Assembly (NCBI RefSeq): GCF_947259025.1
Contig: NZ_CAMYKO010000005.1
Span: forward strand, 186,001 to 250,000
Length of the DNA stretch: 64,000 nucleotides
Direction of reading: 5' to 3'
Source of the DNA: an uncultured Methylophaga sp.
Lineage (GTDB): Bacteria > Pseudomonadota > Gammaproteobacteria > Nitrosococcales > Methylophagaceae
Shown here: positions 2,960-38,339 of the stretch, piece after piece
How the letters are laid out: every line of letters begins with the position of its first letter
How positions within the stretch are numbered: the stretch's first letter is position 1
The notes under the pieces: generated by a model
Databases searched by the model: none
Seen by the model: only the letters and a program-made list of their open reading frames with translations
Told to the model about the DNA's origin: nothing
Made by a program: the position numbers and the translations under genes

Positions 2960-3757
2960 ATGCAAAAAAATATCAAATATTACCTGCTTACCATTCTGCT
3001 CACTATCACCGTGGGCTGCAAAGCAAACTTAGTCGGCGGTATGACATTGAATGAGGCATTTAGCCCTGAGGTGGGGCAATTTGTAGATGCTGTCATGAAT
3101 AACAACTACCAGCGGGCGGATAAGCAGCTCAAGGCCGGCGTAGATATCAATGCCGTAGGCAAGGAGGGAATCACACCACTGTTCTGGCTAATCGCTGAAG
3201 AGCATGCCAATGACCTGACCGCCATCGAATATATGTTAAAAAACGGCGCCGATCCCAACTATCAAGATCCTGAGCGAGAAGTATCGGCCATGTGGCTGGC
3301 TTCAGGAGGGAACAAGCCAGAATTTTTGAAGCTTCTTATTCGTTATGGCGGCGATGTCAACCAAATAGGTAGACGTGATGAGTCTGTGCTGATGGTGGCT
3401 TCAGGTCAGGGACGGCTGGAGAATATCCAGATTTTATTGGATAACGGTGCTGATATGACATGGAATAACCGATTTGGAGAAACTGCGGCATCTATGTGTC
3501 TAACTCCTGGTCGATTTGATTTAACAGTCTTTTTTTTGGAGCAAGGCTTTGATGGTGATCTTCAGACGCTGGCCGCTTATGTCGAAGGGCGGGTTGCAAA
3601 TGAAGAGATGCAACCTTACAAGGAGAAGGCTATCGATATTTTAAAGGAAAATGGGGCAGAGTTTCCTGCCAGTGGTCGCTTAAAACGGCATCTAGAAAAA
3701 CATCCGGCAACTGCAGCAGAAATTGAAGATATGATTTATGGCAGGGTGATGTACTAG
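2960..3757 (+). CDS. Ankyrin-repeat lipoprotein, 265 aa
   Basis: The signal sequence ends in a lipobox (ITVGC, residue 20), so the protein is probably anchored to the inner or outer membrane facing the periplasm. The mature part contains ankyrin repeats from about residue 45 to 185, recognisable from GITPLFWLIAEEH, YMLKNGADPNYQD, LLIRYGGDVNQIG, ESVLMVASGQGRLENIQILLDNGADM and GETAASM. A C-terminal helix pair follows without a clear repeat. Ankyrin repeats mediate protein binding; the partner is unknown. A Shine-Dalgarno AGAGGGAG precedes the ATG. Likely one transcript with the preceding lipoprotein. Confidence 0.85.
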   Translation: MQKNIKYYLLTILLTITVGCKANLVGGMTLNEAFSPEVGQFVDAVMNNNYQRADKQLKAGVDINAVGKEGITPLFWLIAEEHANDLTAIEYMLKNGADPNYQDPEREVSAMWLASGGNKPEFLKLLIRYGGDVNQIGRRDESVLMVASGQGRLENIQILLDNGADMTWNNRFGETAASMCLTPGRFDLTVFFLEQGFDGDLQTLAAYVEGRVANEEMQPYKEKAIDILKENGAEFPASGRLKRHLEKHPATAAEIEDMIYGRVMY

Positions 3758-3842
3758 CAAGGTTGGGCTCATTTCATGATGTCTAAAATGCTAGTAGTGT
3801 TGGGCTGCATGCCCGGGACCGAATCGCGAGCGAAGCGTTGAT

Positions 3843-4049
3843 ATGACAATCTTTGATTTCAATGGCTCGTTTTTCGACTTTATGAAAATCATTTTTTTAT
3901 TCATACCAATGTTGGTTTTGGTGATTAAAAAATTTTATTTGAAACCTAAGGGCTTGGTGGGTGATAAACAAGGCCATACTATTGACTCATATTGTATGGG
4001 CATGATTTGTGTTTTTTTATATTACGTTATTTTTTTTGTTGCTTTTTAA
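3843..4049 (+). CDS. Small hypothetical membrane protein, 68 aa
   Basis: No family recognised. Two hydrophobic stretches are visible, around residues 14-28 (MKIIFLFIPMLVLVI) and 52-68 (CMGMICVFLYYVIFFVAF), separated by a short basic loop, so a two-span inner membrane protein is plausible. The DNA is very T-rich compared with the flanking core genes. The upstream GAGCGAAGCG is only a weak ribosome-binding site. It could be a chance frame, but length, topology and its place in the AT-rich patch favour a real accessory gene. Confidence 0.45.
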   Translation: MTIFDFNGSFFDFMKIIFLFIPMLVLVIKKFYLKPKGLVGDKQGHTIDSYCMGMICVFLYYVIFFVAF

Positions 4050-4267
4050 ATTGAAAACAGTGGTCAACGCATAACTTGACCTAATTAAACTGCCTCACGG
4101 CCAGACTCATCCCAACCGCACTATTTTTAAAAAAGTTTGACACAGAATCAATTGCCTAAGAATTTTGTCGGAGACCTGACTGTCACTATGCTTAGGTAAA
4201 GCTAAGAGCATCCAGACGAATTCTCTGGCCCAGTCTTGATTTAAAAGTCCTCCAAGGAGCGTTGAAA

Positions 4268-5200
4268 ATGAATAGCCGCTTCACTCGCAGACAAAGTCTT
4301 AAAATGCTTGGTGTCGGTTTGGCCGCTACGCTTTTTCCATCAATACCAAGCTTTGCGATAGATAGGGAACTGCTGCGCAAACCTTATTCAGATAATAAGA
4401 CATTGCCGGTTATTGGCCTTGGCACCTGGCAAACCTTCAATGTCGGTAGCGATACTAGGTTGCTGGATGCCCGAACTGAGGTAGTAAAAGCGTTCTTTGA
4501 ACTGGGTGGAGGGCTGATTGATTCCTCGCCCATGTATGGTTCGGCGCCTGATGTGATGGGTTATGCCTTGCAACAGTTAGGTGTGCCCGACAGCCTGTTT
4601 TCGGCAGAAAAAGTCTGGAGTCCGGCAGGTGGTTCAGCAGTCGAGCAGGTCGCTGAGCTGCTGGGGCGCTGGAATCTTGAACAATTCGATTTGGTGCAGG
4701 TGCATAACCTGAGAGACTGGCGTGAGCATCTGGCAGCGCTAAGAGAAATGAAACAAGCAGGGCTGATTCGGCATATTGGCATCACCACCTCGCATGGTCG
4801 TCGCCATCAGGAATTTGAGCAGATTATGGCTTCCAAGGATATCGACTTTGCTCAGCTGACCTACAATATCACCCATCGTGAGGTGGAAAACCGGTTGCTG
4901 CCGCTGGCTCAGGATCGGGGGATCGCTGTCATTGCCAACCGGCCTTATGACGGCGGCAGGCTGATTAAAGGTTTGAAGAGTCGCGATGAGGCCTTGCCCG
5001 AGTGGGCAGTCGAAGAATTTGGCTGCACAAGCTGGGCTGATTTTCTATTGAAGTTTATCGTGAGTCACCCAGCTTTGACTTGTGCTATTCCAGCGACCAT
5101 GCAAGTCGTCCATCTGCGTGAAAATATGCGGGCCGGCATGGGGGCGATGCCCTCAGCTAACACCCGGCAGAAGATGGTGAAATATATTGAGTCGCTATGA
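4268..5200 (+). CDS. Tat-exported aldo/keto reductase
   Basis: An aldo/keto reductase family enzyme (NAD(P)H-dependent carbonyl/alcohol oxidoreductase) with an unusual export signal. Residues 5-25 form a twin-arginine signal (FTRRQSLKMLGVGLAATLF) ending before the catalytic domain. The AKR tetrad is present: D and Y in LIDSSPMYGSA, K in SAEKVW, H in VQVHN. Later motifs include GLIRHIGITTS and YNITHREVENRLLPLA. The ATG at 4268 is preferred over the TTG at 4262 because AAGGAGC ends at 4260. It overlaps the next gene by four bases, so the two are translationally coupled. The physiological substrate is unknown. Confidence 0.88.
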   Translation: MNSRFTRRQSLKMLGVGLAATLFPSIPSFAIDRELLRKPYSDNKTLPVIGLGTWQTFNVGSDTRLLDARTEVVKAFFELGGGLIDSSPMYGSAPDVMGYALQQLGVPDSLFSAEKVWSPAGGSAVEQVAELLGRWNLEQFDLVQVHNLRDWREHLAALREMKQAGLIRHIGITTSHGRRHQEFEQIMASKDIDFAQLTYNITHREVENRLLPLAQDRGIAVIANRPYDGGRLIKGLKSRDEALPEWAVEEFGCTSWADFLLKFIVSHPALTCAIPATMQVVHLRENMRAGMGAMPSANTRQKMVKYIESL

Positions 5201-23808: not shown

Positions 23809-26253
23809 TCAAAGCCTTACCCGCCGCAAGCGCAGCGCATTAGCAATGACCGAGACAGAACTCAGGCTCATCGCTGCAGCTGCAATCATCGGCGATAACA
23901 GCAGGCCGAAAAAGGGATAAAGAATACCGGCAGCGATGGGCACGCCCATCGAGTTATAGACAAAAGCAAAAAACAGGTTCTGGCGGATATTACGCATGGT
24001 GGCGCGACTGAGTCTGAGCGCTTGAACAATACCGCGTAAATCGCCCCTGACCAGGGTGATACCGGCACTTTCCATAGCGACATCGGTGCCACTGCCCATA
24101 GCGATGCCGATAGTGGCCTGGGCCAAAGCCGGCGCATCATTAATTCCATCCCCGGCCATGGCCACCCTGTAACCCTGTGACTGTAGCTTTTTGACAGCCT
24201 CACTTTTCTGATCGGGCTGTACATCGGCCTGGACATCATCAATATTGAGCTGCGTCGCCACAGCCTGGGCCGTGACTGTGTTATCACCGGTCATCATGAC
24301 AACTTTGATACCCTCACGGTGCAGGGCATCAATGGCTTCTCGACTGGTTTCTTTAATCGGATCAGCCACACTGACCAGGCCCGCTGCCCGGCCATCAATT
24401 GCTACCAGCATGACGGTCTGGCCTTGCTTGCGCAGCTCTTCGGCCTGTTGTTGCAATGAGGCGGCATCAATCCCCTGATGCTCAAACAGGGCGGTATTTC
24501 CCAGGCTGATCTGGCGGCCATCAACCCGGCCCTGGATACCCTGACCAGTGACAGAATCAAACTCATCGGGTTTGGACAGCGACAGACCCTTTTCCTTAGC
24601 CCCTTTGATTATGGCCGCTCCTAGCGGATGTTCGCTGCCCTGTTCCAGGCTGGCAGCAAGTTGCAGCAATTCATCGTGATTAAAATCATTGACAGTCGCT
24701 ACTTTCACCAGCTTGGGTTTACCCTCGGTCAGCGTGCCGGTTTTATCGAGAACCAGCGTGTCAATCTGTTCCATGGCTTCCAGCGCTTCGGCATTTTTTA
24801 TTAACACGCCCATTGCGGCACCACGGCCGGTGCCAACCATTATCGACATAGGCGTCGCCAGGCCCAGCGCACAGGGACAGGCAATAATAAGCACAGCGAC
24901 GGCATTGATAATGGCATGTGACAGTGTCGGTTCCGGTCCCCAGATAAACCAGCTGATCAGGGTTAGTACAGAGACCAGGACCACCGCCGGAACAAACCAG
25001 GCAGCGACTTTATCCACCAACTTTTGCACCGGCGCTCGTGAACGCTGGGCTTCCGCCACCATATTGACGATTTGCGACAGCAGGGTGTCCTGACCCACGC
25101 GCTCGGCCTGCATCAGCAAGGTGCCGGTGGTATTAACGGTAGCACCGATGAGCTTATCGTCCTGCTTTTTACTGGCTGGAATGGGCTCTCCTGTCACCAT
25201 GGATTCATCTACACTGCTGCTGCCCTCGAGTACGGTGCCATCGACCGGGATCTTCTCGCCTGGCCTGATCCGCAGTTTGTCACCGGCGGCAACTTGATCC
25301 AGGGCAATGTCTTTCTCTTCGCCGTCATCTTTCACCAGCCGCGCGGTTTTCGGGGCCAGGCCCAGTAGCAGTTTGATAGCTGTGCTGGTTTGGCTGCGTG
25401 CCTTGAGCTCCAGCACCTGACCCAGTAACACCAGCACCGTAATCACCGCGGCGGCTTCAAAGTAGACGGCCACACTACCATCGCTATGCTGCATGCTGGC
25501 AGGGAACAGTGCGGGGAAGAGCAGGGCGATGACACTATAGAGCCAGGCGACACTAACGCCCAGCCCGATCAGCGTGAACATGTTTAGGTTCATGGTCCGT
25601 ACTGATTGCACGGCACGAACAAAAAACGGCCAGCCACCCCAGAGCACGACCGGGGTGGCCAGCACAAATTCTATCCAGTACCAGCTATGAGTCGACAGGC
25701 TGCCGGGCATCAACTCGGGGGCCATATCCAGCACCATAGCGATCAGCAATACCGGTATAGCCAGCATGGCGCCGAGCCAGAAACGCCGCGACATCAGTTT
25801 GAGTTCAGTGTTGTCTTCTTCACTATCGACTGTGATAGATTCCAGAGCCATCCCGCATTTGGGGCAGTCGCCGGGTTCGTCACGAAGGATCTCCGGGTGC
25901 ATCGGACAGGTGTACTGGGTTTTGCTGGATGGCTGTATTGGAGATTCAGGTTCCAGGGCCATACCACACTTTGGGCAACTCCCCGGACCTTGCTGGCGCA
26001 CGCCTTCGCACATCGGACAGATATAGTCACCGTCTTGACTGACTTTTGCGCCAGGCTGACTTTTTTGTTCTGAGTCTCCGTGACCACCACAATAGCTATG
26101 AGTCTGTTCCTGGTGCAAATAATGGGCAGGATCGGCCCGGAAGTTATTCAGGCAATGCTGTGAACAAAACACATAATCCTGCTCATCATGACGGGTATGA
26201 TAGCGAGCGGTTTGTTTATCAACGGACATGCCGCAGACGGGATCAGTGGCCAT
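23809..26253 (-). CDS. Copper/silver-type P1B ATPase with N-terminal YHS and zinc-ribbon-like metal domains
   Basis: 814 residues. The N-terminus is a YHS domain ([18 protein letters not shown], about residues 1-45), then two '[22 protein letters not shown]' heavy-metal-binding repeats (about 75-140). The P-type core has the transmembrane IIACPCALG (Cys459-Pro-Cys461), the phosphorylated Asp503 in DKTGT, TGE and [13 protein letters not shown] transporters export Cu+ or Ag+ from the cytoplasm. The gene is divergent from a MerR-type regulator with a MerR-type 19-base-spacer promoter between them. Confidence 0.93.
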
Positions 26254-26349
26254 GGTTTACTCCTTCGAGTCATGGATATGACGCGGACACCCACATAAGA
26301 CGTCACTTTACCTAGCGATCAGCGATATTTTGGCTGACCTTCGATGTTA

Positions 26350-26380
26350 ATATAAGGTGCGTACCGTAGTACGGAGTCAA
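26350..26380 (-). promoter_or_regulatory. MerR-type promoter/operator of the P-type ATPase gene
   Basis: On the minus strand TTGACT (26380-26375) is followed after 19 bases by TTATAT (26355-26350). The over-long spacer carries the dyad CGTAC-TACG-GTACG. This is the architecture of MerR-family target promoters, and TTGACTCCGTAC matches the start of the mercury-operon promoter. It also overlaps the regulator's own upstream region, allowing autoregulation. Confidence 0.85.
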
Positions 26381-26385
26381 GCAAA

Positions 26386-26781
26386 ATGAAACAAGCCGGT
26401 TTAACCATCAGCCAATATGCTGCCACCGCCGGGGTCGGCGTTGAAACCGTGCGCTTTTATCAACGTCAGGGCCTTTTATCCACGCCTGAAAAAGGTGAGG
26501 GGATCCGTCGCTATGATAAGGAAGCTGTGCGGACGTTGCGTTTTATTCGCCGGGCGCAAGAGGCGGGGTTCACGCTCAAAGAAATCGGGGAGCTATTAAG
26601 CCTTGATTCCAGCCTCGACCATCAGCGAGCCAGGGAGCTGGCAAAAAAACGCATCGGTGAGTTGGACAACAAGATTGCCGAAATGCAACAAGCCCGGGAT
26701 AGCCTGAAGAAACTGGCCAACGCCTGTAGCCAGGGTGGTGATAGGAAACCCTGTGCGATTTTGTCTGCCTTTGATATCTGA
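26386..26781 (+). CDS. MerR-family metal-responsive activator
   Basis: 131 residues: winged helix (ISQYAATAGVGVETVRFYQRQGLL, then GIRRYDKEAVRTLRFIRRAQEAGFTLKEI), a long dimerisation helix and a metal loop near the C-terminus with two cysteines (ACSQGGDRKPCAI, spaced C-x8-C). The third cysteine of mercury-type MerR (in the HCEEA motif) is replaced by DHQRA. That two-Cys pattern is nearer to Cu+/Ag+ sensors of the CueR type or to Cd/Pb relatives. It sits divergent to a Cu-type ATPase, its obvious target. Confidence 0.9.
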   Translation: MKQAGLTISQYAATAGVGVETVRFYQRQGLLSTPEKGEGIRRYDKEAVRTLRFIRRAQEAGFTLKEIGELLSLDSSLDHQRARELAKKRIGELDNKIAEMQQARDSLKKLANACSQGGDRKPCAILSAFDI

Positions 26782-28358: not shown

Positions 28359-29303
28359 TTAGTGCCAGGTATCGATATCGGCGCCCAACAGCCGGGCTTG
28401 GCTGAATAAGGACCGGGCTTCATCGGTATCGAGACGGACGCCGTAAGCGACATAAGGGAAGTCACTCAGTGGTGCACGGGTCTGCTTAAAAAAAGGCCAT
28501 TGCTTGTTTTTGCGGTAGAAAGTTTCGACAAAGCTGGTCAAGGCCACAACGCCCCTTTTGGGACCCGGCAGGTTAATCATCCACGGGCCGCCGGAGTCGC
28601 CGCGGGTGGGCATCGGTAAGGAAGTCCGGTATTCATTCTGATGCAGGCGATTAACGGCCAGCAGGGCGTTCTGAGAGCGAAGCAGCAGCTTTTTGGCCTC
28701 GAACTGGGTGCGGAACTGCATGTAAAGCAAAGGATCCAGCGGCTCGTAGATAGCAGGGACAAAATGCTGGAATTCTTCATTGGCGGTCATGAGGTTTTTG
28801 ACTGCGCAACTGGGTTCTGTTTTCACCGCTGAGCGGTAGCCCTGACCATAACCGCATAACAGAGCTTTCGGTGAGCTTTGGGCCGTGGTCACGGGCAATG
28901 CTTCAATGCCTTCAGGCGCATTACCATCAAAAATGAGTACCGCGATATCGCGGGCGAGGTTTTCATTCAGGTTGTCGTAATCGCTGTATACCGCAGCGCG
29001 CAGTTGCGGTACCGGCACACCCAGGAACAATTGCACCATCGGTGTTTTGGTAACCGGATTAAGCCTGGCATTGCGCATGCAATGCGCAGCAGTCAGCACG
29101 GTGAGCGGGGCGGTGCCAACCACAACTGAACTGCATTCATTGGTTTCGGTAATCAAACCTTTGACAGAGGCATGCCAACGCAACTGATCAACTGTGATTT
29201 TTCCGGTAGACACAGCAACCGGGTTGGCCGCTGAGCCATGAATGACAGCAGATGCCGGGAATGTCCATATCAAACTCAGTAACAGTACGAATAAGTGTCG
29301 CAT
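28359..29303 (-). CDS. Secreted trypsin-like serine protease
   Basis: 314 residues with a signal peptide (RHLFVLLLSLIWTFPASAVIHG). The chymotrypsin-fold triad is complete: His in LTAAHCMRN, Asp in ARDIAVLIF, Ser in TRGDSGGPWMI. Several Cys (ECSSVV, HCM, LLCGYG, PSCAV) fit disulfide pairing in the periplasm or outside. No PDZ domain is present, so this is not a DegP relative. The target is unknown. About 300 bases upstream to the next gene contain only that gene's terminator. Confidence 0.9.
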   Translation of the reverse strand: MRHLFVLLLSLIWTFPASAVIHGSAANPVAVSTGKITVDQLRWHASVKGLITETNECSSVVVGTAPLTVLTAAHCMRNARLNPVTKTPMVQLFLGVPVPQLRAAVYSDYDNLNENLARDIAVLIFDGNAPEGIEALPVTTAQSSPKALLCGYGQGYRSAVKTEPSCAVKNLMTANEEFQHFVPAIYEPLDPLLYMQFRTQFEAKKLLLRSQNALLAVNRLHQNEYRTSLPMPTRGDSGGPWMINLPGPKRGVVALTSFVETFYRKNKQWPFFKQTRAPLSDFPYVAYGVRLDTDEARSLFSQARLLGADIDTWH

Positions 29304-29547: not shown

Positions 29548-29580
29548 CAAAAAAAAGCCGGGGCCCGAAGGCCCCGGCAA
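29548..29580 (-). terminator. Strong terminator of the nemR-QOR-nemA-PQQ dehydrogenase unit
   Basis: GCCGGGGCC - CGAAG - GGCCCCGGC followed on the minus strand by a run of T. It ends leftward transcription after the dehydrogenase gene. Confidence 0.9.
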
Positions 29581-29604: not shown

Positions 29605-31542
29605 TTAACGAATCGGCAGGTAGAGCAGCTCACCGGCTTTCATGTCCGGAACCAGCAGCTGCTTGCCATCAGCAGACAGAGCCATATCTGCGGCTGCCTT
29701 CAATTGGTCTCTAATCAGCTGTGGCGTGGCACGCGGGCCGGCCAGTTGCCAGACTTTGCCGTTATGCCAGTCACTGACGTAAAGAAAGCCGTGGATGTCA
29801 CGGACCAGGCCATCCGCTCCGCCAAAGCCCTGATTCAGATCTTTGACTTTTCCTGAGCTCAGATCAGCGCGGTACAAATCACCGGTCCCGAAGTCGGCGA
29901 CCAGCAGGGTATTGATACCGTCCATCAGCAAGCCATTAGGACGTTTGATGCCAGACTTTTCATTCAGGACCTGGCTGATTTCGCCTTCAGGGGTGATTTT
30001 ATAAATGCCGGCATGCTTACCGTCCTCTGTGCCGCTGTCCGACACATAGACATTACCGTTGCCGTCAATCTCAAGGTCATTGAGAAACTCGGCTTTACCG
30101 GGCAAGTTCTTACTGTCGGCAATCACCTGCACATTACCGTCCATATCAATTTTAAAGACCTGATTGATATCAGCGACATACAGCACATTGTTGAACAAAT
30201 CGATACCTTTGGGATCGTTCAGGCCGCCAGCCAGAACAGTTTTGCTGCCATCCGGGTTGATGACACTGATCTGACCGTCGCCGCCCTTGCCGAATTCACC
30301 AATCTCACTGACAAATACGCGGCCATCAGTATGAGCGATAGCTGATTCCGGCATGCTCAGACCGGTCACTTTATCGGTTTTTGCCGCAGCAGTAGAGGCC
30401 GTTTTCTGACCACCCTGACCGTAGCTGATACGATAAATCACCCCATTGTAGTCATCGGACACCAGCAAGGAGCCATCAGGCAACTCCAGTACATCAGTCG
30501 GACGGCCCCAGGCTTCACCATCCTGCAGCCAGCCATCAATAAAGACCTCATGGCCGCTGACCTGGTTGTTATCGAAAGTCACCCGCTGCAATTTATATCC
30601 GACCGGTTCGGTACGGTTCCAGGAACCGTGCTGGGCAATGATGGCATCGCCCTGGTATTCAGCCGGGAACATTTTTCCGGTGTAGAACTTAAAACCCAGG
30701 TTGGCGGTATGGGCCTGAAACTCGACTTCCGGGAAGGTCATTTCCTGCGGCACTGGCTTGTCCTGCCAATCCTGATGACGGGCATTACCACCGGCATAAT
30801 ACGGAAAGCCGAAATGCTGACCCATTTCCGCAGCATGGTTGAATTCACCCGGCGGGTTGTCATCACCCATCATATCGACGTTGTTATCGGTGAAATACAA
30901 GTCACCGCTTTCAGGATGAAAATCCATGCCGACCGAATTACGCACGCCATGGGCATAGACTTCAGCCTCACTGCCATCCGGATTCATGCGGATAATGGTG
31001 CCTTCATAGCCTTTGACATCACAGATGTTGCAGGGCGCACCGACGGTGACATAAAGCTTGCCGTCAGGGCCAAAGTCGATATAGCGCCAGCCGTGATGCG
31101 CCTTGTCAGGCAGGTCATCGAAGACCACTTCGCGCATTTGTTCAAATGGCAGGGTGAGATCAAAGCCGGGCGCAGCATAGCGTGCAATACGGTTCTGTTC
31201 CGCCACATAAAGGTTGCCCTGATGCATGGCCACGCCGTTGCCTATTTTCAGATCGCTGAGAATATTAACCACTTCATCAGCCTGACGATCTTTGTTTTTA
31301 TCGACCACCGCATAGGCGTTTTTGCCGCGGGTACCGACAAACACGGTGCCGGTAGATTGACCAAAGGTCATTTGCCGGGCGCCGGGCACCTCGGCATAGA
31401 CTTCAACATTAAAGCCTTCAGGCACATTCAATTTGTGCAGGTTGGCTTCGGCGGCAGCACGATCGGCCATTGCCGGTGTCGCCAGCAGGCCCATTGACCC
31501 TGCTGCCAGGGTTGCGAGAGAGAGCGTTTTGAGTTTCATCAT
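29605..31542 (-). CDS. Periplasmic PQQ-dependent sugar (sorbosone-type) dehydrogenase fused to an SMP-30/gluconolactonase-like domain
   Basis: 645 residues. Signal peptide 1-27 (ends TPAMA). The first beta-propeller (about 35-375) is a PQQ glucose/sorbosone dehydrogenase: HHGWRYIDFGPDGKLYVTVG (His150 as likely base), HGVRNSVGMDFHPESGDLYFTDN (Arg201) and the final LPDGSLLVSDDYNGVIYRI. After a short Ala/Thr linker a second propeller (about 395-645) has SMP-30 signatures NDLEIDGNGNVYVSDS, RPNGLLMDG and LLVADFGTGDLYR. The first could oxidise an aldose to a lactone and the second hydrolyse it; this is inference. The start may be the second ATG (31539), better spaced from AGGAGG. Last gene of the NemR-linked unit. 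Confidence 0.87.
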   Translation of the reverse strand: MMKLKTLSLATLAAGSMGLLATPAMADRAAAEANLHKLNVPEGFNVEVYAEVPGARQMTFGQSTGTVFVGTRGKNAYAVVDKNKDRQADEVVNILSDLKIGNGVAMHQGNLYVAEQNRIARYAAPGFDLTLPFEQMREVVFDDLPDKAHHGWRYIDFGPDGKLYVTVGAPCNICDVKGYEGTIIRMNPDGSEAEVYAHGVRNSVGMDFHPESGDLYFTDNNVDMMGDDNPPGEFNHAAEMGQHFGFPYYAGGNARHQDWQDKPVPQEMTFPEVEFQAHTANLGFKFYTGKMFPAEYQGDAIIAQHGSWNRTEPVGYKLQRVTFDNNQVSGHEVFIDGWLQDGEAWGRPTDVLELPDGSLLVSDDYNGVIYRISYGQGGQKTASTAAAKTDKVTGLSMPESAIAHTDGRVFVSEIGEFGKGGDGQISVINPDGSKTVLAGGLNDPKGIDLFNNVLYVADINQVFKIDMDGNVQVIADSKNLPGKAEFLNDLEIDGNGNVYVSDSGTEDGKHAGIYKITPEGEISQVLNEKSGIKRPNGLLMDGINTLLVADFGTGDLYRADLSSGKVKDLNQGFGGADGLVRDIHGFLYVSDWHNGKVWQLAGPRATPQLIRDQLKAAADMALSADGKQLLVPDMKAGELLYLPIR

Positions 31543-31565: not shown

Positions 31566-32666
31566 TCAAGCTTCGAGAAAGGGGTAATCGGTATAGCCGC
31601 GTTCATCGCCGCCATAAAAGCTGTCGGGATCGGGCTCGTTAAGCGTCGCCTGTTTATCAAAGCGAACCGGCAGGTCCGGGTTGGCGATAAACAGCTTGCC
31701 GAATGAGATGAGATCAACGTCACCGCTGGCGATCACCTGATTGGCGCTTTCCAGACTGTAGTTATAGTTGGTCATGTAAATGCCGTCCCAGCGTGGGCGC
31801 AGGCTACTGATATCAAAATAGGGGCCGGCTGCGCCGGGATTATCACTACCCATTTCAGTGATATGTAGATAAGCCAGGTTCCGCTGATTTAAATGATCAA
31901 CGGCATAGCTGAAGGTGGTTTGCGGATCGCTGTCTGAGACATCATTAAATGGCTGGAGTGGCGAAAGGCGCACCCCGACCCGATCCGCGCCCCAGATCTG
32001 GGTCACTTCATCGACCACTTCCAGTAACAGACGGGCGCGGTTTTCCAGGCTGCCACCATAGCGATCTTCACGCTGGTTGCTGCCATCGCGCAGAAACTGA
32101 TCCAGCAGGTAACCATTGGCACCGTGAACTTCAACACCATCAAACCCGGCACTCAGCGCATTGTGCGCGGCCAGACGGAAGTTGACCTTCATTTGCTCGA
32201 TCTCTTCGAGTGTCATCGCGCGGGGCGTTTCATAGGGCTTCATGCCCTCATAGGTCATTACTTCACCAGCCGGTTTGATCGCTGATGGTGCCATCGGCAC
32301 CCGGCCATCGGGCTGCATCGATGAGTGACCAACCCGACCGCAGTGCCAGATCTGCATGACAATTTTGCCCCCTTGCTGGTGAACGGCATCAGTGACCTTT
32401 TTCCAGCCTTCAACCTGCTGCTGGCTGTAGATGCCGGGAATGTTGGGATAACCTTCACCGTCACTACTGACCAGCGTGGCTTCGGTGATAATAAGGCCGG
32501 CCGAGGCGCGCTGACGGTAGTATTCAACCATCATATCGCTGGGCACCATGCCTGCATCGGCACGGTTACGCGTCAAGGGCGCCATCACAAAGCGGTTTTT
32601 CAAAGACAAGGCACCGACCGTGATCGGTGTCAGTAAATCCGGATCCTGCTTAACATGCGTGTTCAT
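31566..32666 (-). CDS. nemA: Old yellow enzyme, N-ethylmaleimide reductase type
   Basis: 366 residues of an FMN OYE-family ene-reductase. Motifs: LTPITVGALSLKNRFVMAPLTRNRA, QIWHCGRVGH, GFDGVEVHGANGYLLDQFLRDGSNQREDRYGG and LISFGKLFIANPDLPVR. In many NemA enzymes the second catalytic pair is His-Asn; VHGANGYL provides it. It reduces electrophilic alkenes, maleimides and nitro compounds with NADPH. ATG 32666 has AAGGAACG upstream. It lies between a quinone reductase (25-base gap) and the PQQ fusion (23-base gap). Confidence 0.94.
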   Translation of the reverse strand: MNTHVKQDPDLLTPITVGALSLKNRFVMAPLTRNRADAGMVPSDMMVEYYRQRASAGLIITEATLVSSDGEGYPNIPGIYSQQQVEGWKKVTDAVHQQGGKIVMQIWHCGRVGHSSMQPDGRVPMAPSAIKPAGEVMTYEGMKPYETPRAMTLEEIEQMKVNFRLAAHNALSAGFDGVEVHGANGYLLDQFLRDGSNQREDRYGGSLENRARLLLEVVDEVTQIWGADRVGVRLSPLQPFNDVSDSDPQTTFSYAVDHLNQRNLAYLHITEMGSDNPGAAGPYFDISSLRPRWDGIYMTNYNYSLESANQVIASGDVDLISFGKLFIANPDLPVRFDKQATLNEPDPDSFYGGDERGYTDYPFLEA

Positions 32667-32691: not shown

Positions 32692-33681
32692 TTAAACGGT
32701 GACAATAACTTTGCCCAATTGCTCATTGGACTCGAGATAGCGGTGGGCTGCCACGATGTCATCAAACTGGAAGGTCCTGGCAATCACAGGCCTTAACTGG
32801 GCATTGTCGAGCCACTGGTAAATCGCTTTTTGAGCCCGTGCCAGCTTGGCCTCGTCGCTGGTGAATTCAAACAGGGTATAACCTCGTACTGTCAGCCCTT
32901 TGGCTAGTACGCTGAACAGCGGGAACGGCGTAGGCTCGGGGCTCAGCGCACCATATTGGAAAATGATGCCGTGTTTGGCCGTCACCTGTGCCAGGGTTTC
33001 CAGCATCGGCCCGCCCACCGGATCGAACACAATCCTGACACCTTCACCTGCCGTGATATTTTCCACCTCGGCGATGACATCCTGTGCCTTGCTGACCACA
33101 ACATGCTGAGCACCATGATCCAGCAAAGCCTGTTTCTTGTGATGGCTGCGGGTGAGGGCAATTGGTATCGCACCTATCAGGTTACATAGCTGTATGGCGG
33201 CCAGACCCACGCTGCTGGAAGCGGCGGGAATCAGCACAAAATCATCGGCCTGCATATTGGCGATATCAATCAGTGCGCCATAAGCGGTCAGGTACTGCAT
33301 CCATATGGCGGCGGCCTGTTCCCAGCCCAGTCCGGGCGGGTGGTGAGTCACAGCAGTGACAGGCATATTCACCGTTTCGCCATAACTGCCGTAATGGTTC
33401 ATGGAGAAGTTGGGGACGGTGCTGACTGCATCACCAATGGTGAAGCCCTCAACGCCGTCTCCGATGGCTGTGACAGTACCGGCTGCCTCATAACCGATGC
33501 GCGCAGGCAACTCGGGTGACTCCAGGTATTGACCACGACGAAACATCACTTCAGCACGGTTGAGGCCAAACGCCGCCACTTCTATTTGAATCTCACCCGC
33601 TTCTGGGGCTGGTACGGTCTCATTTTGTATCTGCAGCACCTCGGCATCACCGGTCTGCTCGAATCTGATTACTCTGGACAT
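32692..33681 (-). CDS. Zinc-free MDR-type quinone oxidoreductase/alcohol dehydrogenase-like
   Basis: 329 residues of the medium-chain dehydrogenase superfamily, quinone-oxidoreductase branch. The N-terminal GroES-like fold has GLNRAEVMFRRGQY and GYEAAGTVTAIGDG; the NADPH motif is IPAASSSVGLAAIQLC; there is no structural-zinc Cys cluster. It likely reduces quinones or enones with NADPH. ATG 33681 sits after AGGAGACCTT. It is the first gene after the NemR box and 63 bases from nemR. Confidence 0.9.
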   Translation of the reverse strand: MSRVIRFEQTGDAEVLQIQNETVPAPEAGEIQIEVAAFGLNRAEVMFRRGQYLESPELPARIGYEAAGTVTAIGDGVEGFTIGDAVSTVPNFSMNHYGSYGETVNMPVTAVTHHPPGLGWEQAAAIWMQYLTAYGALIDIANMQADDFVLIPAASSSVGLAAIQLCNLIGAIPIALTRSHHKKQALLDHGAQHVVVSKAQDVIAEVENITAGEGVRIVFDPVGGPMLETLAQVTAKHGIIFQYGALSPEPTPFPLFSVLAKGLTVRGYTLFEFTSDEAKLARAQKAIYQWLDNAQLRPVIARTFQFDDIVAAHRYLESNEQLGKVIVTV

Positions 33682-33706
33682 AAGGTCTCCTGTCATAAAA
33701 TCTTAA

Positions 33707-33721
33707 TAGACCAGTCGTCTA
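33707..33721. promoter_or_regulatory. NemR-type operator, copy 1
   Basis: TAGACCAGTCGTCTA, an inverted repeat TAGAC-n5-GTCTA. An identical box is at 34381-34395. It lies in the 63-base gap between nemR and the quinone reductase gene, the place expected for control of the detoxification genes. Confidence 0.8.
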
Positions 33722-33744: not shown

Positions 33745-34368
33745 TCATACCGCCGGACGGGACAGGCCCAGTCGGACACAGAGTGCATTCATGGCAATAT
33801 GTAAAGCGTCAGGGTTGTGATTGACCTTGGTCAGCAGTGTCGCGCCTATCCATAGATAATAGAGTTCCTGTGTGACGGTTTTGGCATCGTCATTAATGTG
33901 GATTTCCTGCTTATCAGCGGCTTCCTGGACAACCCGGGCAATGCGATTGATGACGCGGTGGGTGCCATGCTTGAGCGCTTCACGCATGCTTTCCGATAAG
34001 TCGGTGACTTCACCACTCAGCTTGACGACCAGACACTTATCGGTGGTTGTGTCACCACACTGACTGGTTTTCCAGTTATCGAAATAGCTGACGACACGAT
34101 CAACCGCAGGCTGCTGTTCATTACCCAGTTGTTCTTCGAGCATAGCCATGTACTGATCAAAATAATTTTCCAGCAACTGGCTGCCGAAATGTTCCTTGGA
34201 CTTGAAATAATGGTAGAAAGACCCTTTAGGCACACCGGCGGTTTTGAGAATTTCATTGAGGCCGACCGCAGCAAAGCCCTTGCCCAAGATAATGCCCTGT
34301 GCGGTATCGAGGATCTGTTGTCGGGTATCGCTGTGGCGCGAGCGGGCTGCTTGATTCATGGGCTGCAT
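33745..34368 (-). CDS. nemR: TetR-family electrophile sensor NemR
   Basis: 207 residues. The N-terminal helix-turn-helix is AVGLNEILKTAGVPKGSFYHYFKSKEHFG, typical of NemR. The segment DKCLVVKLSGEVTDLSESMREALKHG aligns with E. coli NemR around its redox Cys106, so the sensing cysteine is conserved. NemR represses nemA until quinones, glyoxals or hypochlorite modify it. It heads the leftward unit. Upstream lies the divergent doe operon. Confidence 0.92.
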   Translation of the reverse strand: MQPMNQAARSRHSDTRQQILDTAQGIILGKGFAAVGLNEILKTAGVPKGSFYHYFKSKEHFGSQLLENYFDQYMAMLEEQLGNEQQPAVDRVVSYFDNWKTSQCGDTTTDKCLVVKLSGEVTDLSESMREALKHGTHRVINRIARVVQEAADKQEIHINDDAKTVTQELYYLWIGATLLTKVNHNPDALHIAMNALCVRLGLSRPAV

Positions 34369-34380
34369 TGTTTCATAAAT

Positions 34381-34395
34381 TAGACCAGTCGTCTA
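34381..34395. promoter_or_regulatory. NemR-type operator, copy 2 (upstream of nemR, facing doeB)
   Basis: TAGACCAGTCGTCTA, identical to the box at 33707-33721. It is just upstream of nemR and within 200 bases of the divergent doeB start, so it can autoregulate nemR and might touch the doe promoter. Confidence 0.8.
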
Positions 34396-34582: not shown

Positions 34583-35743
34583 ATGGGCGACACCTGGCAA
34601 CAAGCTATAGACACGGCTTTGCAACTGCGTCATCAGTTGCACCGTCATCCCGAACTGGGCTGGCAGGAAGTGAAAACGGCTGAGTTGATCCGCAATGAAC
34701 TCAGCTCGCTGGATATTCCCTGGCAGGCCTGCGCTGAATTAGGCACGCTGGGCCGACTCAACCCCCATGGCAAAGGCCCGCATATTGCACTGCGCGCCGA
34801 TATGGATGCCTTACCCATCGTCGAACAGACCGAGCATGAATGGCGATCCCATCATGAAGGTTGTATGCATGCCTGCGGTCATGACGGCCATACTGCCACC
34901 TTGCTGGCCAGCGCCCGCTGGCTCAAATCCGTTGAATCCCAATTGCCGGGGCCTGTTACCTTGCTGTTTCAGCCAGCCGAGGAGGGTGGCCACGGCGCCA
35001 AAAAAATGATTGATGACGGTGCACTGGAAGGTATCGACTTTATATATGGCTGGCATAACTGGCCGGCGATTCCTTTCGGTAAGCTGGTGTGTCCGGACAA
35101 CATTATTATGTGTGGCAACGGCACCTTCGAAATTGAGCTTCACGGCGAAGGCGGCCACGCCAGTCAGCCGGAACTGTGTCGTGACCCGGTACTTGCCGCC
35201 AGTGCTGTGACCATGGGCTTGCAGCAAATTGTCAGCCGCCGTATTGCACCACAACATCCTGTGGTTATCAGCGTTGCCTCTATCGAAGCCCCCAGTGCGG
35301 CCACGGTGATCCCTGCCACTGCCCGCATCGGCGGCAGCATCCGTGTACCGGATCTGCAAACTCGAAAACAGGTCAACCAGCTTATCAGTGACATCGCCAC
35401 ACAGACCGCAGCGGCTTATGGCGTGCGCTGTGATGTGACCCACTTTCCCCGCTATGAAGCGACGATCAATCACGCTGCTCAGGCCGCCAATGTGAGACAG
35501 GCCTGGCAGCAGGATCATGGTGATGACAGTCTCGACCAATCCTTGCTGCTGCCGGTGATGGCATCAGAAGATTTCAGCTATTACCTGCAGCAGATCCCCG
35601 GTGCTTTTGCGCTGGTCGGTGCTGATGATGGTCCAGCGCATCAGGCGGTCTGCCACAGTCCGCATTATGATTTTAATGATCGCCTGATACCGCTGGTCAC
35701 CCGTTTGTATGCGCGCCTGGTCGGTGCGCCGCTTGCACAATAA
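34583..35743 (+). CDS. doeB: M20-family N-alpha-acetyl-diaminobutyrate deacetylase, DoeB
   Basis: 386 residues, M20 amidohydrolase fold. Metal ligands are seen in HACGHDGHTA, EEGGHGAK and ADMDALPI; the dimerisation domain holds GEGGHASQPEL. Alone it could be any hippurate or acyl-amino-acid hydrolase. Next to a diaminobutyrate aminotransferase, an ectoine hydrolase-like M24 protein and an aldehyde dehydrogenase, it fits DoeB, which removes the acetyl group from N-alpha-acetyl-diaminobutyrate during ectoine breakdown. GGGGAG precedes the ATG. First gene of the operon. Confidence 0.85.
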   Translation: MGDTWQQAIDTALQLRHQLHRHPELGWQEVKTAELIRNELSSLDIPWQACAELGTLGRLNPHGKGPHIALRADMDALPIVEQTEHEWRSHHEGCMHACGHDGHTATLLASARWLKSVESQLPGPVTLLFQPAEEGGHGAKKMIDDGALEGIDFIYGWHNWPAIPFGKLVCPDNIIMCGNGTFEIELHGEGGHASQPELCRDPVLAASAVTMGLQQIVSRRIAPQHPVVISVASIEAPSAATVIPATARIGGSIRVPDLQTRKQVNQLISDIATQTAAAYGVRCDVTHFPRYEATINHAAQAANVRQAWQQDHGDDSLDQSLLLPVMASEDFSYYLQQIPGAFALVGADDGPAHQAVCHSPHYDFNDRLIPLVTRLYARLVGAPLAQ

Positions 35744-35797
35744 CCGACCATAGAACCATTGCCCAGGCAATGGATTGAGTCAATCAGGAGGTGTTTG

Positions 35798-37081
35798 ATG
35801 AGTGTATTCGATCAACGTGAGTCTGCAATCCGTGCTTATTGCCGTGTTTATCCCACAGTCTTTGACAAGGCCAGTAACGCCAGGCAGACCGATGAAGACG
35901 GTCGTGAGTATATCGATTTCTTTGCCGGTGCCGGGGTACTGAACTTTGGTCACAACAATGAACGCATGACTCAGGCAGTGATTGACTATATTCAATCCGG
36001 CGGCGTGACCCACTCGTTGGATATGATGACCACGGCCAAGCGCCGCTTTATGGAGCGCTTTGAAAATACCATCCTCAAGCCGCGCAACATGCCACACAAA
36101 ATGCAGTTTATCGGCCCGACCGGGACTAATGCGGTGGAAGCGGCAATGAAACTGGCCAGACGGGTTACAGGCCGTCAGGACATCGTGGCCTTCACCCGTG
36201 GTTTCCACGGGATGACGCTGGGTTCGCTGGCTGCTACTGCCAACCGCTATTTCCGTGGTGCTGCCGGGGTGCCGCTTAACCATGTGAGCCATTATCCCTT
36301 TGGCTGTGAGAAACCCTGCATGGGCTGTGAGTCGGGCTGCGGTATCGACAACCTGGAGCGTATGCGCAGCCTTTATAACGATACCTCCAGTGGGGTGACG
36401 CCACCGGCGGCTTTTCTGCTGGAAACAGTCCAGGCCGAAGGCGGCGTTAATGTGGCTTCCAAAGACTGGCTGCAAGCCGTCGCTGCGCTGGCACGGGAGG
36501 TCGGTGCTTTGCTGATTGTGGATGATATTCAGGTGGGCATGGGCCGCACCGGCTCCTTTTTCAGCTTTGATGATATGGGTATCGACCCGGATATCATCTG
36601 CCTGGCTAAAGGGCTTGGTGGCATGGGGATGCCGATTGCCATGAATCTGATTAAACCGGAATCTGATGAATACTGGGCTCCGGGCGAGCATACCGGGACA
36701 TTCCGTGGGCAAAGCCTGTCATTTGTGGCTGGCGGCGAAGCACTCAGCTACTTTGAAGATGACAAGCTGATGGAAGAGGTCAAATCCAAAGCTGAACGGA
36801 TGAATACTGCGCTGGCACCGCTTGAGCAGCGATTCCAACAGGTTCAGATCCGGGGCAAAGGCATGATCATCGGCCTCGATGTACTAACCGGCGAGCGTGC
36901 CAGAGCCATTGTTGACTGCTGTTTTGAGCAGGGACTGATTATCGCCAGTTGTGGTACCGGTGGCCGGGTGGTCAAGCTGATACCCCCGCTGACCATACCG
37001 GATGCGGATTTGGATCAGGGACTCGAGATCCTGGTGAACGCCACTATGAAAGTCATGGAGAAAGAACATGAGACAGCGTGA
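35798..37081 (+). CDS. doeD: Diaminobutyrate aminotransferase of ectoine catabolism, DoeD
   Basis: 427 residues, class III PLP aminotransferase of the EctB/DoeD type. Motifs: YIDFFAGAGVLNFGHNN, GPTGTNAVEAAMKLARRVTGR, VDDIQVGMGRTGSFF and the PLP lysine in CLAKGLGG. It converts diaminobutyrate to aspartate semialdehyde. AGGAGG precedes the ATG at 35798. An insert with four close cysteines (Cys170, 174, 177, 181) is noteworthy, similar to Cys pairs in GABA transaminases. It overlaps doeA by 14 bases. Confidence 0.88.
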   Translation: MSVFDQRESAIRAYCRVYPTVFDKASNARQTDEDGREYIDFFAGAGVLNFGHNNERMTQAVIDYIQSGGVTHSLDMMTTAKRRFMERFENTILKPRNMPHKMQFIGPTGTNAVEAAMKLARRVTGRQDIVAFTRGFHGMTLGSLAATANRYFRGAAGVPLNHVSHYPFGCEKPCMGCESGCGIDNLERMRSLYNDTSSGVTPPAAFLLETVQAEGGVNVASKDWLQAVAALAREVGALLIVDDIQVGMGRTGSFFSFDDMGIDPDIICLAKGLGGMGMPIAMNLIKPESDEYWAPGEHTGTFRGQSLSFVAGGEALSYFEDDKLMEEVKSKAERMNTALAPLEQRFQQVQIRGKGMIIGLDVLTGERARAIVDCCFEQGLIIASCGTGGRVVKLIPPLTIPDADLDQGLEILVNATMKVMEKEHETA

Positions 37082-38339
37082 TGATATGACCTTTCCTTTC
37101 GAGGAATACGAACGCCGACTGAGCGAACTGCGGGTACGGATTGCTGAACGCTTGCTGGATGCGGTGGTGATCACCGATCCGGAAAACATCATGTATCTGA
37201 CCGATTACCAGACCACCGGTTATTCATTCTTTCAGGCGCTGGTGGTGCCGCTCGAACAAGAGCCGTTCATGATTACCCGGGCCATGGAAGAATCCAACAT
37301 CATCGCCCGTACCTGGGTGGAGCGCACCCGGCCTTATCCGGACACCGGTGACGCGATCCAGATGCTGGTGGATGCCTTACGCGAATTCGGCCTGGCCAAC
37401 AAGCGAATCGGTTATGAGCGTAACAGCTATTTCTTCCCGGCTTATCAGCAGGACTTTATTCATACCACGCTGACTGAAGGTAAGTTGCTGGATTGTTTCG
37501 GTATCGTTGAGCAAGGGCGTGTCTGCAAGTCGCCGGTTGAAATTGAAGTCATGCACAGAGCGGCCAGAGCCACAGAAGCTGGCATGAAAGCGGGAATCGA
37601 AGCCGCTCAGGCCGGGGTTACTGAGAATGATATTGCCGCCGAAATCAGTGCCGGTATGTTCCGCGCTGGCGGTGAACCACCGGCGGTCATGCCTTATGTG
37701 ACTTCGGGGCCACGCACCATGATCGGCCATGCCACCTGGGAAGGCCGCACAGTACAGCCTGGTGAGCATGTCTTTCTAGAAGTGGGCGGCTGTTACCGGC
37801 GTTATCACACCGCGATGATGCGCACCATCATACTGGGCGAATTGACCGACACCATGTACAAAGCCCAGGAGCGGATGAAAATGGCGCTCAATGAGGTGCA
37901 TCGTGTTGTGCAGCCGGGCATGACTGTGTCTGATGTCGATAATATGATCCGTAACATCATCACCAATAACGATGTCGGCGCGCGGCTGGTTACCCGTTCC
38001 GGTTACTCGATTGGTATTGCCTTCCCGCCCAGCTGGGATGAGGGCTATATCTGTAGTTTGAAGCAGGGGGAGTCGGCAATTCTGCAAGAAGGCATGACCT
38101 TCCATATTATTCCCTGGATGTGGGGCGTGGATGGTGACAAAACCTGCGGCATTTCCGACACCATCCATATCACCGCTGATGGCTGTAAATCTTTCTTCAC
38201 CATGGATCGCGACTTCACTGTCAAACCGGATCAGGCTGACAAGACGCTGATTGATCTGGGACAGGCCCGTAGCAGCGAGAAACACAAGCAGAGTGAAGAA
38301 GGCGGCAGCAACCGCAAAACCGCTAAAAATTCAAAATGA
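37068..38339 (+). CDS. doeA: Ectoine hydrolase, DoeA/EutD family (M24 fold)
   Basis: 423 residues, creatinase/prolidase-like fold. Motifs RRLSELRVRIAERLLDAVVITDPENIMYLTDY at the N-terminus, then VTSGPRTMIGHATWEGR, GGCYRRYHTAMMRT and GYSIGIAFPPSWDEGYI match DoeA/EutD rather than Xaa-Pro peptidases. Several canonical M24 metal ligands are replaced, as in ectoine hydrolases. The enzyme opens the ectoine ring to acetyl-diaminobutyrate. The C-terminal 40 residues are a polar, Lys/Ser-rich tail. The ATG overlaps doeD, with GGAGAAAG upstream. Confidence 0.87.
   Translation: MRQRDDMTFPFEEYERRLSELRVRIAERLLDAVVITDPENIMYLTDYQTTGYSFFQALVVPLEQEPFMITRAMEESNIIARTWVERTRPYPDTGDAIQMLVDALREFGLANKRIGYERNSYFFPAYQQDFIHTTLTEGKLLDCFGIVEQGRVCKSPVEIEVMHRAARATEAGMKAGIEAAQAGVTENDIAAEISAGMFRAGGEPPAVMPYVTSGPRTMIGHATWEGRTVQPGEHVFLEVGGCYRRYHTAMMRTIILGELTDTMYKAQERMKMALNEVHRVVQPGMTVSDVDNMIRNIITNNDVGARLVTRSGYSIGIAFPPSWDEGYICSLKQGESAILQEGMTFHIIPWMWGVDGDKTCGISDTIHITADGCKSFFTMDRDFTVKPDQADKTLIDLGQARSSEKHKQSEEGGSNRKTAKNSK

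Follow-up and report, generated by a model that had tools for sequence, protein, structure and literature searches.

The window considered here, a 64,000-nucleotide stretch of contig NZ_CAMYKO010000005.1 (positions 186,001 to 250,000) from an uncultured Methylophaga sp., is placed by close relatives in the Methylophaga type and encodes, on its minus strand, a 645-residue protein in which two different beta-propellers are joined. Propeller 1 resembles dehydrogenases dependent on pyrroloquinoline quinone (PQQ), and propeller 2 resembles SMP-30 and NHL proteins. A first-pass annotation made from the letters of the sequence had described a single signal-bearing polypeptide of this kind, and the description stands: one open reading frame (ORF) occupies exactly 29605-31542, a signal peptide is recognisable by eye, and the Pfam families GSDH and SGL both score over their cut-offs. 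In window coordinates, the gene and its product are laid out as follows.

29605..31542, minus strand: fusion gene for a predicted exported protein of 645 residues, PQQ dehydrogenase propeller plus SMP-30/NHL-like propeller (single ORF and Pfam)
31465..31542, minus strand: Sec-type signal peptide, residues 1-26, MMKLKTLSLATLAAGSMGLLATPAMA then D, with cleavage between MMKLKTLSLATLAAGSMGLLATPAMA and D (by eye)
30415..31464, minus strand: propeller 1, AA12/GSDH-type PQQ dehydrogenase, residues 27-376, core about 37-375 (Pfam GSDH and structural match to TrAA12)
30379..30417, minus strand: linker joining the two domains, residues 376-388 (predicted with low confidence)
29608..30378, minus strand: propeller 2, SGL/NHL-like, six-bladed, residues 389-645 (Pfam SGL, AlphaFold2 (AF2) model and match to Cj1041c)

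AAGGAGGA precedes the ORF, whose start lies 23 bp past the previous gene and whose product is predicted to be exported. When the whole protein was searched with profiles, GSDH was placed at residues 137-370 (63.1 bits against a cut-off of 25) and SGL at residues 454-601 (63.3 bits against 26.3); the second half searched alone still gave 47.3 bits with SGL, and NHL repeats also exceeded their cut-off there (23.2 bits against 20). Both halves named by the first-pass annotation are thus recovered in domain searches, and the motifs it had singled out, His150, Arg201, NDLEID (488-493), RPNGL (534-538) and VADF (548-551), are all there. Given the low confidence of the linker in the full-length predicted structure and a predicted template modelling score (pTM) of 0.59, no claim is made about the packing of the two domains.

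The two-propeller fusion is real. Among 59 related public loci, 24 encode full-length fusions, three are broken by contig ends (L016, L028, L061) and 32 match propeller 1 only; in a survey of the order (E <= 1e-40), 32 of 63 genomes gave a match, 26 of them with a full-length fusion, and it is because of these recurrent full-length copies that an assembly artefact is set aside. The remaining matches in the order comprise two fusions broken off by a contig end or by a stretch of N, two instances of propeller 2 alone, and two of a dehydrogenase only (39% identity). An apparent natural split into separate dehydrogenase and propeller genes in genome G004 was rejected, a stretch of N in the assembled sequence accounting for the break. 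Methylophilus and Methylotenera carry fusions too, as do other families. A tree of 45 propeller-1 sequences, which contains long branches, puts the fused sequences in three places; a single clade of all fused propeller-1 domains was rejected (approximately unbiased test, p-AU 6.0e-5), as was a clade of fused domains without L125 and L126 (p-AU 0.0014). Such a pattern could reflect either the joining of the same propeller-2 type to separate dehydrogenase branches or one gain followed by repeated loss.

Propeller 1, a member of the 'sorbosone dehydrogenase family', is closest in structure to the fungal AA12 enzymes (TrAA12, Z 39.2, root-mean-square deviation (rmsd) 2.5, 336 residues aligned; CcPDH, Z 38.9), with weaker matches to soluble glucose dehydrogenase (sGDH, Z 34.6) and to E. 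coli Asd, also named YliI (Z 31.9); the Pfam TrAA12 model reaches 16.2 bits, below its cut-off of 30.9. PMC6881789 lists nine PQQ contacts of CcPDH (Arg273, His363, Arg430, Asn431, His539, His560, Trp563, Asn564 and Arg621), which were assigned by motif and spacing to R56, H150, R201, N202, H278, H305, W308, N309 and R347, the assignments of R56 and R347 resting on spacing and conservation. Alignment to TrAA12 agrees at H278, H305-S307 and R310; opposite W308 and N309, that protein has T and D. Across 45 rows (19 fused and 26 stand-alone sequences), no change is seen at H150, R201, H278, H305, W308 or R347, and N202 is present in 44; R56 and N309 are invariant both in alignment A1 (45 rows) and in 29 fusions. 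The principal positions are these.

31093..31095, minus strand: His150, catalytic base position (CcPDH His363, sGDH His144), 45/45 rows; role from PMC6881789
30937..30942, minus strand: Arg201-Asn202, PQQ-contact positions (CcPDH Arg430-Asn431), R 45/45, N 44/45
30613..30630, minus strand: HGSWNR, residues 305-310, AA12-type PQQ-contact positions (CcPDH His560, Trp563, Asn564), from alignments and PMC6881789
30502..30504, minus strand: Arg347 (CcPDH Arg621 position, by motif and spacing), 45/45 rows

A PqqE protein is encoded in the same genome (558.6 bits, cut-off 381.35), and propeller 1 is predicted to bind PQQ. As for substrates, PMC4133262 reports that, of five compounds measured, the 2-ketoaldehyde D-glucosone gives the highest kcat/Km with CcPDH, and that activity on D-glucose is little or none.

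Modelled alone with AF2, propeller 2 is confidently predicted as a propeller (predicted local distance difference test score, pLDDT, 94.8). Its nearest solved structure is Cj1041c with Ca2+ (Z 31.4, rmsd 2.2, 243 residues aligned, 28% identity), and further matches include the RPA3624 lactonase (Z 30.6) and DFPase (Z about 29.7). A Foldseek search with the whole model was set aside, large multi-propeller receptors with poor TM-scores having come out on top. Residues E399, N488, N536 and D577 align with the E/N/N/D of SMP-30-type proteins, which are metal ligands in SMP-30, and, through the relative L127, with those of Cj1041c; in DFPase, E21, N120, N175 and D229 are named as mutated sites in PDB titles. 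All four positions, and Asp619 as well, are invariant in the 24 propeller-2 sequences compared (19 fused, window included, and five stand-alone).

30346..30348, minus strand: Glu399, metal-ligand position 1, 24/24, by alignment to the SMP-30 type
30079..30081, minus strand: Asn488, metal-ligand position 2, 24/24
29935..29937, minus strand: Asn536, metal-ligand position 3, 24/24
29812..29814, minus strand: Asp577, metal-ligand position 4, 24/24

Propeller 2 is predicted to bind a metal at these four conserved positions. The SMP-30-like character given to it by the first-pass annotation is borne out to this extent, and placement in a non-lactonase NHL family devoid of a metal site was not seen, though NHL repeats also score and NHL folds tie. 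Confidence in the domain make-up and the conserved sites is high. In addition, the Methylophaga-type genomes G035 and G045 encode propeller 2 as a stand-alone protein of 289-293 residues (62-63% identical) with its own signal by eye and no propeller-1 match at E <= 1e-40. Propeller 2 therefore appears to fold and to be kept without the dehydrogenase, and the notion that it is a mere structural scaffold, which had been put forward as an alternative at the outset, is weakened by these two copies, which are predicted to be exported. The window's own genome encodes a second, stand-alone propeller-2-like protein of 290 residues (L002; G000:C2:162643-163389, minus strand), which is about 30% identical, bears a signal by eye, and has the same E/N/N/D positions.

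The fusion gene is the last of four genes on the minus strand, which are accompanied by two palindromes and a strong terminator-like hairpin.

33745..34368, minus strand: TetR repressor, nearest models CurR and AcuR (TetR_N and TetR_C_13)
32692..33696, minus strand: zinc-type NAD(P)H quinone oxidoreductase, closest to the PIG3-family model (229 bits, cut-off 297)
31566..32666, minus strand: old yellow enzyme (OYE), NemA-like, ATG start chosen at 32666 (Oxidored_FMN 295 bits; PRK10605 399.9 bits, cut-off 403)
33707..33721, no strand: operator-like palindrome TAGACCAGTCGTCTA / TAGACGACTGGTCTA, between the genes for TetR and the quinone oxidoreductase (genome pattern search)
34381..34395, no strand: identical palindrome TAGACGACTGGTCTA, just upstream of the TetR gene (genome pattern search)
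29557..29578, minus strand: intrinsic terminator-like hairpin, nine GC pairs then eight T, just 3' of the fusion gene (sequence)

The genes run in the order TetR, quinone oxidoreductase, OYE and fusion, separated by gaps of 48, 25 and 23 bp (with the OYE ATG that we chose), and are predicted to be co-transcribed as an operon. The TetR protein scores best with the CurR (226/300 bits) and AcuR (129/247 bits) models; as regards its relationship to NemR, one aligned column is cysteine in 14 of 15 TetR proteins. The 15-bp pattern TAGAC-N5-GTCTA occurs at just two places in the 2.7-Mb genome, both within the operon, with an expected count in the window of 0.01, and all eight aligned clade-A sequences have the palindrome that stands upstream of TetR. 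Across the genus, the pattern is found in 21 of 24 genomes, and 38 of its 47 sites have a fusion gene no more than 6 kb away; when sites are restricted to the core TAGACGAYYGGTCTA, 38 of 39 do. Two of the three genomes without a site carry propeller 2 only (G035 and G045), and the third is 68% complete and fusion-less. A reversed control pattern was equally or more frequent in 23 of the 24 genomes, and therefore the raw number of palindromes is unremarkable and their position remarkable. As sequence facts, the gene order and the palindromes are held with high confidence; the palindrome is a putative operator to which the TetR protein may bind.

Neighbourhoods of four genes either side were compared between 19 fusion loci, picked against near copies (144 neighbours, of which 143 were scanned; L093 and L102, with stretches of N, gave fewer), and 28 Pseudomonadota control loci matching propeller 1 only (196 neighbours). 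These controls replaced a first flank set with many Bacteroidota, and consist of eight of the 32 propeller-1-only loci (L034, also from Pseudomonadota, was left out) and 20 further loci, mostly the highest-scoring with a few skipped. By Pfam, neighbours of the fusions include seven AraC_N, seven ADH_N, six TetR_N, four Oxidored_FMN, four adh_short and two DJ-1 proteins, plus one HxlR; a neighbour at L013 is SDH_protease and not AraC. At least one gene for a medium-chain dehydrogenase/reductase (MDR), OYE, TetR, AraC_N, short-chain dehydrogenase/reductase (SDR), DJ-1 or HxlR protein is present at 14 of 19 fusion loci versus none of the 28 controls, the controls having been assessed by local search at E <= 1e-4 (Fisher p 3e-8, a value that ignores relatedness and the after-the-fact choice of gene kinds). 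In the Pfam tables, which are independent of any query, the counted kinds are absent among the 25 commonest families listed per control set. Control neighbours include Cytochrom_C proteins (14 of 196) and one GntP permease. Specifically, an ORF with a CXXCH motif lies directly downstream of the dehydrogenase gene in 13 of 28 controls but in none of the 19 fusion loci (p 5e-4). The encoded proteins (at L137, L138, L140-L146, L148, L149, L151 and L152) are small and cytochrome c-like, and are likely electron acceptors of the stand-alone dehydrogenases.

Individual arrangements vary. At L129, in a genome of another family, genes for TetR, thioredoxin (both by eye), OYE, SDR, DJ-1/PfpI and quinone oxidoreductase precede the fusion in that order, and the palindrome core, with one base different, stands directly before the TetR gene. 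This locus was dropped as a distant witness of the palindrome, its fusion being close to that of the window in the propeller-1 tree, which leaves L131 as the only strongly diverged fusion with the palindrome. At L131 (the same gene as L125), again in another family, the palindrome core precedes the TetR gene, and the neighbours include a second GSDH protein, TetR, OYE, SDR and a DJ-1/PfpI/YhbO-family protein (166.6 bits, cut-off 139), with a Glyoxalase/VOC gene further on. The second GSDH protein (3665-4831) is of the classical type (476 bits) and precedes this most diverged of the fusions. A divergent AraC_N regulator stands in for TetR within the Methylophilaceae and in several members of the window's family; the Methylophilus locus includes a zinc alcohol dehydrogenase (ADH) nearest the Ahr model (318/470 bits), and in G033 a second copy of the fusion adjoins a zinc ADH and an HxlR regulator. 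In several Methylophaga, the fusion or the stand-alone propeller 2 has close by a gene for a small catalase-family protein with a signal by eye (L094 5550-6542, L095 6191-7183, L010 5147-6187), that of L010 scoring 103.8 bits with Pfam Catalase.

In the window itself, a trypsin-like protein (28359-29303, minus strand; Pfam Trypsin 32.6 bits), in which a signal is recognisable by eye, is encoded just beyond the fusion terminator, ectoine-degradation-like genes recognised by eye (34583-38339, plus strand; M20 deacetylase, diaminobutyrate-type aminotransferase, M24 hydrolase) are divergent from TetR, and a copper-type P-ATPase (minus strand) with a divergent MerR-like regulator, also by eye, lies at 23809-26781.

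The fusion gene keeps the company of NemA-, YqhD- and DJ-1-type genes, and we therefore read its product as an exported protein that supplies the oxidising arm of a response to reactive carbonyls. In PMC5297802, NemR-NemA-GloA and YqhC-YqhD are described as E. coli responses to glyoxal and methylglyoxal, and DJ-1 homologues as glyoxalases. Specifically, we propose an exported two-domain carbonyl-processing enzyme whose gene closes an electrophile-response operon under TetR control, a proposal that we consider evenly poised between right and wrong, our confidence in a function as a carbonyl-response enzyme being about even. Propeller 1, with PQQ and Ca2+ in an AA12-type pocket, would act in the periplasm on a reactive carbonyl, oxidising its aldehyde or cyclic hemiacetal end, the likeliest substrate class being alpha-oxoaldehydes, osones or hydroxyaldehydes, and would pass the electrons to a periplasmic acceptor. 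Propeller 2, with a divalent metal at Glu399, Asn488, Asn536 and Asp577, would most likely hydrolyse an ester-type product or co-substrate, for example the lactone arising from hemiacetal oxidation (we infer both the substrate class and the lactonase step). The cytosolic partners, namely the quinone oxidoreductase and the NemA-like OYE and, in relatives, a YqhD-like ADH, SDR or DJ-1 protein, would reduce or repair the same kinds of compound.

Several observations weigh against this reading, some concerning the protein and others the operon and its neighbours. TRIM NHL domains match propeller 2 as well as the lactonases and DFPase do (Z about 30), and therefore fold alone cannot separate a lactonase from an NHL binding domain. 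Position 486, equivalent to the SMP-30 substrate arginine (Arg101, two residues before the first Asn), is Phe in 22 of 24 sequences, the window's Phe486 among them, and Leu in the other two. Several aldopyranoses are also oxidised by CcPDH, according to PMC4133262, and a sugar is therefore a possible substrate for propeller 1. In the operon, the TetR, OYE and oxidoreductase proteins all score under the cut-offs of their nearest named models, inspection of the palindromes revealed no sigma-70-like site, and the operator core TAGACGAYYGGTCTA was picked after the data had been seen. The difference in neighbourhoods is affected by gene categories likewise chosen after the data were seen and by query proteins for the local search that were drawn from the fusion loci and so favour them; moreover, the 19 loci are not independent and represent about six arrangements. 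Five of them (L013, L018, L096, L103 and L130) have no counted neighbour, L096 being a diverged fusion from another family of the order. GGDEF (six) and EAL (four) proteins are as common beside the fusions as the counted kinds, and the control neighbours include two proteins of the Glyoxalase/VOC family, which was not counted. Finally, the fusion at L129 closely resembles that of the window in sequence, and its operon may therefore have spread by transfer.

Alternative explanations must be weighed against the same evidence. The first-pass annotation had inferred a two-step periplasmic aldose-to-acid enzyme; on this model an aldose dehydrogenase would act with a gluconolactonase to convert sugars to sugar acids for energy or carbon. 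The GSDH and SGL families, the sGDH, Asd and AA12 folds, the conserved metal site, the GntP permease beside one stand-alone control locus, and the oxidation of several pyranoses by AA12 enzymes (PMC4133262) all suit such a role. However, the carbonyl- and electrophile-type neighbours at 14 of 19 loci, the operon partners (TetR, quinone oxidoreductase, OYE) and the palindrome point toward electrophiles, propeller 2 does not have the SMP-30 substrate arginine, and the gluconate route is less likely because the genome yields no match to TIGR01313, a gluconokinase model and the only one used to probe gluconate or aldonate routes (its E. coli control was positive). The aldose-to-acid role is not supported by these findings, and we consider it unlikely.

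The exclusive association of the CXXCH ORF with stand-alone dehydrogenases (13 of 28 loci versus 0 of 19) lends itself to a different explanation, in which the second propeller is a non-enzymatic platform for docking or electron transfer that replaces the neighbouring cytochrome c gene. NHL-like propellers often bind partners, which would accord with such a platform. The invariance of the four metal positions and Asp619 in all 24 sequences, including stand-alone copies without a dehydrogenase, argues otherwise, and a docking function is judged improbable. The close fold of propeller 2 to DFPase and the RPA3624 lactonase, together with its stand-alone survival in G035 and G045, would also be consistent with hydrolysis of a substrate unrelated to the dehydrogenase product (an organophosphate, a quorum lactone or another ester), the two propellers being joined merely through a common stress regulon. 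This we regard as very improbable: propeller 2 is joined to separate dehydrogenase branches, a sign that closeness of the two sites may matter, unless it has been repeatedly lost.

Taken further, the favoured reading of a reactive-carbonyl response would imply a previously undescribed periplasmic electrophile defence carried on one exported chain. In such a system, a PQQ dehydrogenase would act on reactive carbonyls (alpha-oxoaldehydes, hydroxyaldehydes and perhaps carbonyls from periplasmic methanol oxidation), a tethered metal propeller would open the resulting lactone or ester, the TetR switch would be shared with cytosolic NemA-type reductases and DJ-1, and the whole would have been assembled more than once from separate dehydrogenase branches. 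We advance this extended proposal tentatively, and hold it to be possible but doubtful. Methanol-oxidising bacteria produce formaldehyde in the periplasm, and the proposal, if true, would place detoxification where they do so; it would also give a physiological role to a common but poorly assigned enzyme family. The bacterial glyoxal-type electrophile defences covered in the consulted part of the review (PMC5297802) consist of cytosolic-type reductases and glyoxalases. Literature searches found nothing that joins sorbosone dehydrogenase with an SMP-30 fusion, or with gluconolactonase in methylotrophs, and nothing on RPA3624 as a lactonase, absence from print being unproven in each case. Nothing relevant was found on the operator, the accessible part of PMC3739934 giving no operator sequence, and the protein is not mentioned under the names searched in the accessible part of an expression study of M. 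thiooxydans (PMC6548844). The sorbosone dehydrogenase of PMC10602560 is an NADP-dependent enzyme of the aldehyde dehydrogenase (ALDH) family that has the same name and is unrelated to propeller 1.

Comparison with known systems reveals both similarities and differences. Propeller 1 shares its fold and PQQ-contact positions, including the His-Gly-Ser stretch, with CcPDH and TrAA12 (CAZy AA12, fungal PQQ pyranose dehydrogenase), but identity is about 21%, and CcPDH has a cytochrome b and a cellulose-binding domain (PMC4133262) where a second propeller is found here. With sGDH and E. coli Asd it has in common a six-bladed PQQ propeller and the His/Arg/Asn active-site positions; unlike in those enzymes, its PQQ carboxylate contacts are of the AA12 type, and the structural match is weaker. 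Similarly, propeller 2 resembles SMP-30/regucalcin and the bacterial gluconolactonases (Pfam SGL) in scoring over the SGL cut-off and in presenting E/N/N/D positions in the same order, but differs in scoring just 47 bits and in carrying Phe where SMP-30 has its substrate arginine ahead of the first Asn. The PES, FLN, PNG and DG motifs are common to propeller 2 and Campylobacter Cj1041c (PDB 22gu, Ca2+ complex), which, unlike propeller 2, stands alone; DFPase and the RPA3624 beta-propeller lactonase share the six-bladed fold and E/N/N/D ligand pattern, but are unfused and about 22-24% identical. Lastly, the operon is reminiscent of E. coli nemRA-gloA and yqhC-yqhD, in which TetR and a NemA-type OYE, or a divergent AraC regulator, sit beside carbonyl-processing enzymes; no PQQ enzyme or periplasmic arm is named for those systems in the sections of PMC5297802 consulted, whereas here a predicted exported PQQ dehydrogenase closes a predicted operon whose TetR is nearest the CurR and AcuR models.

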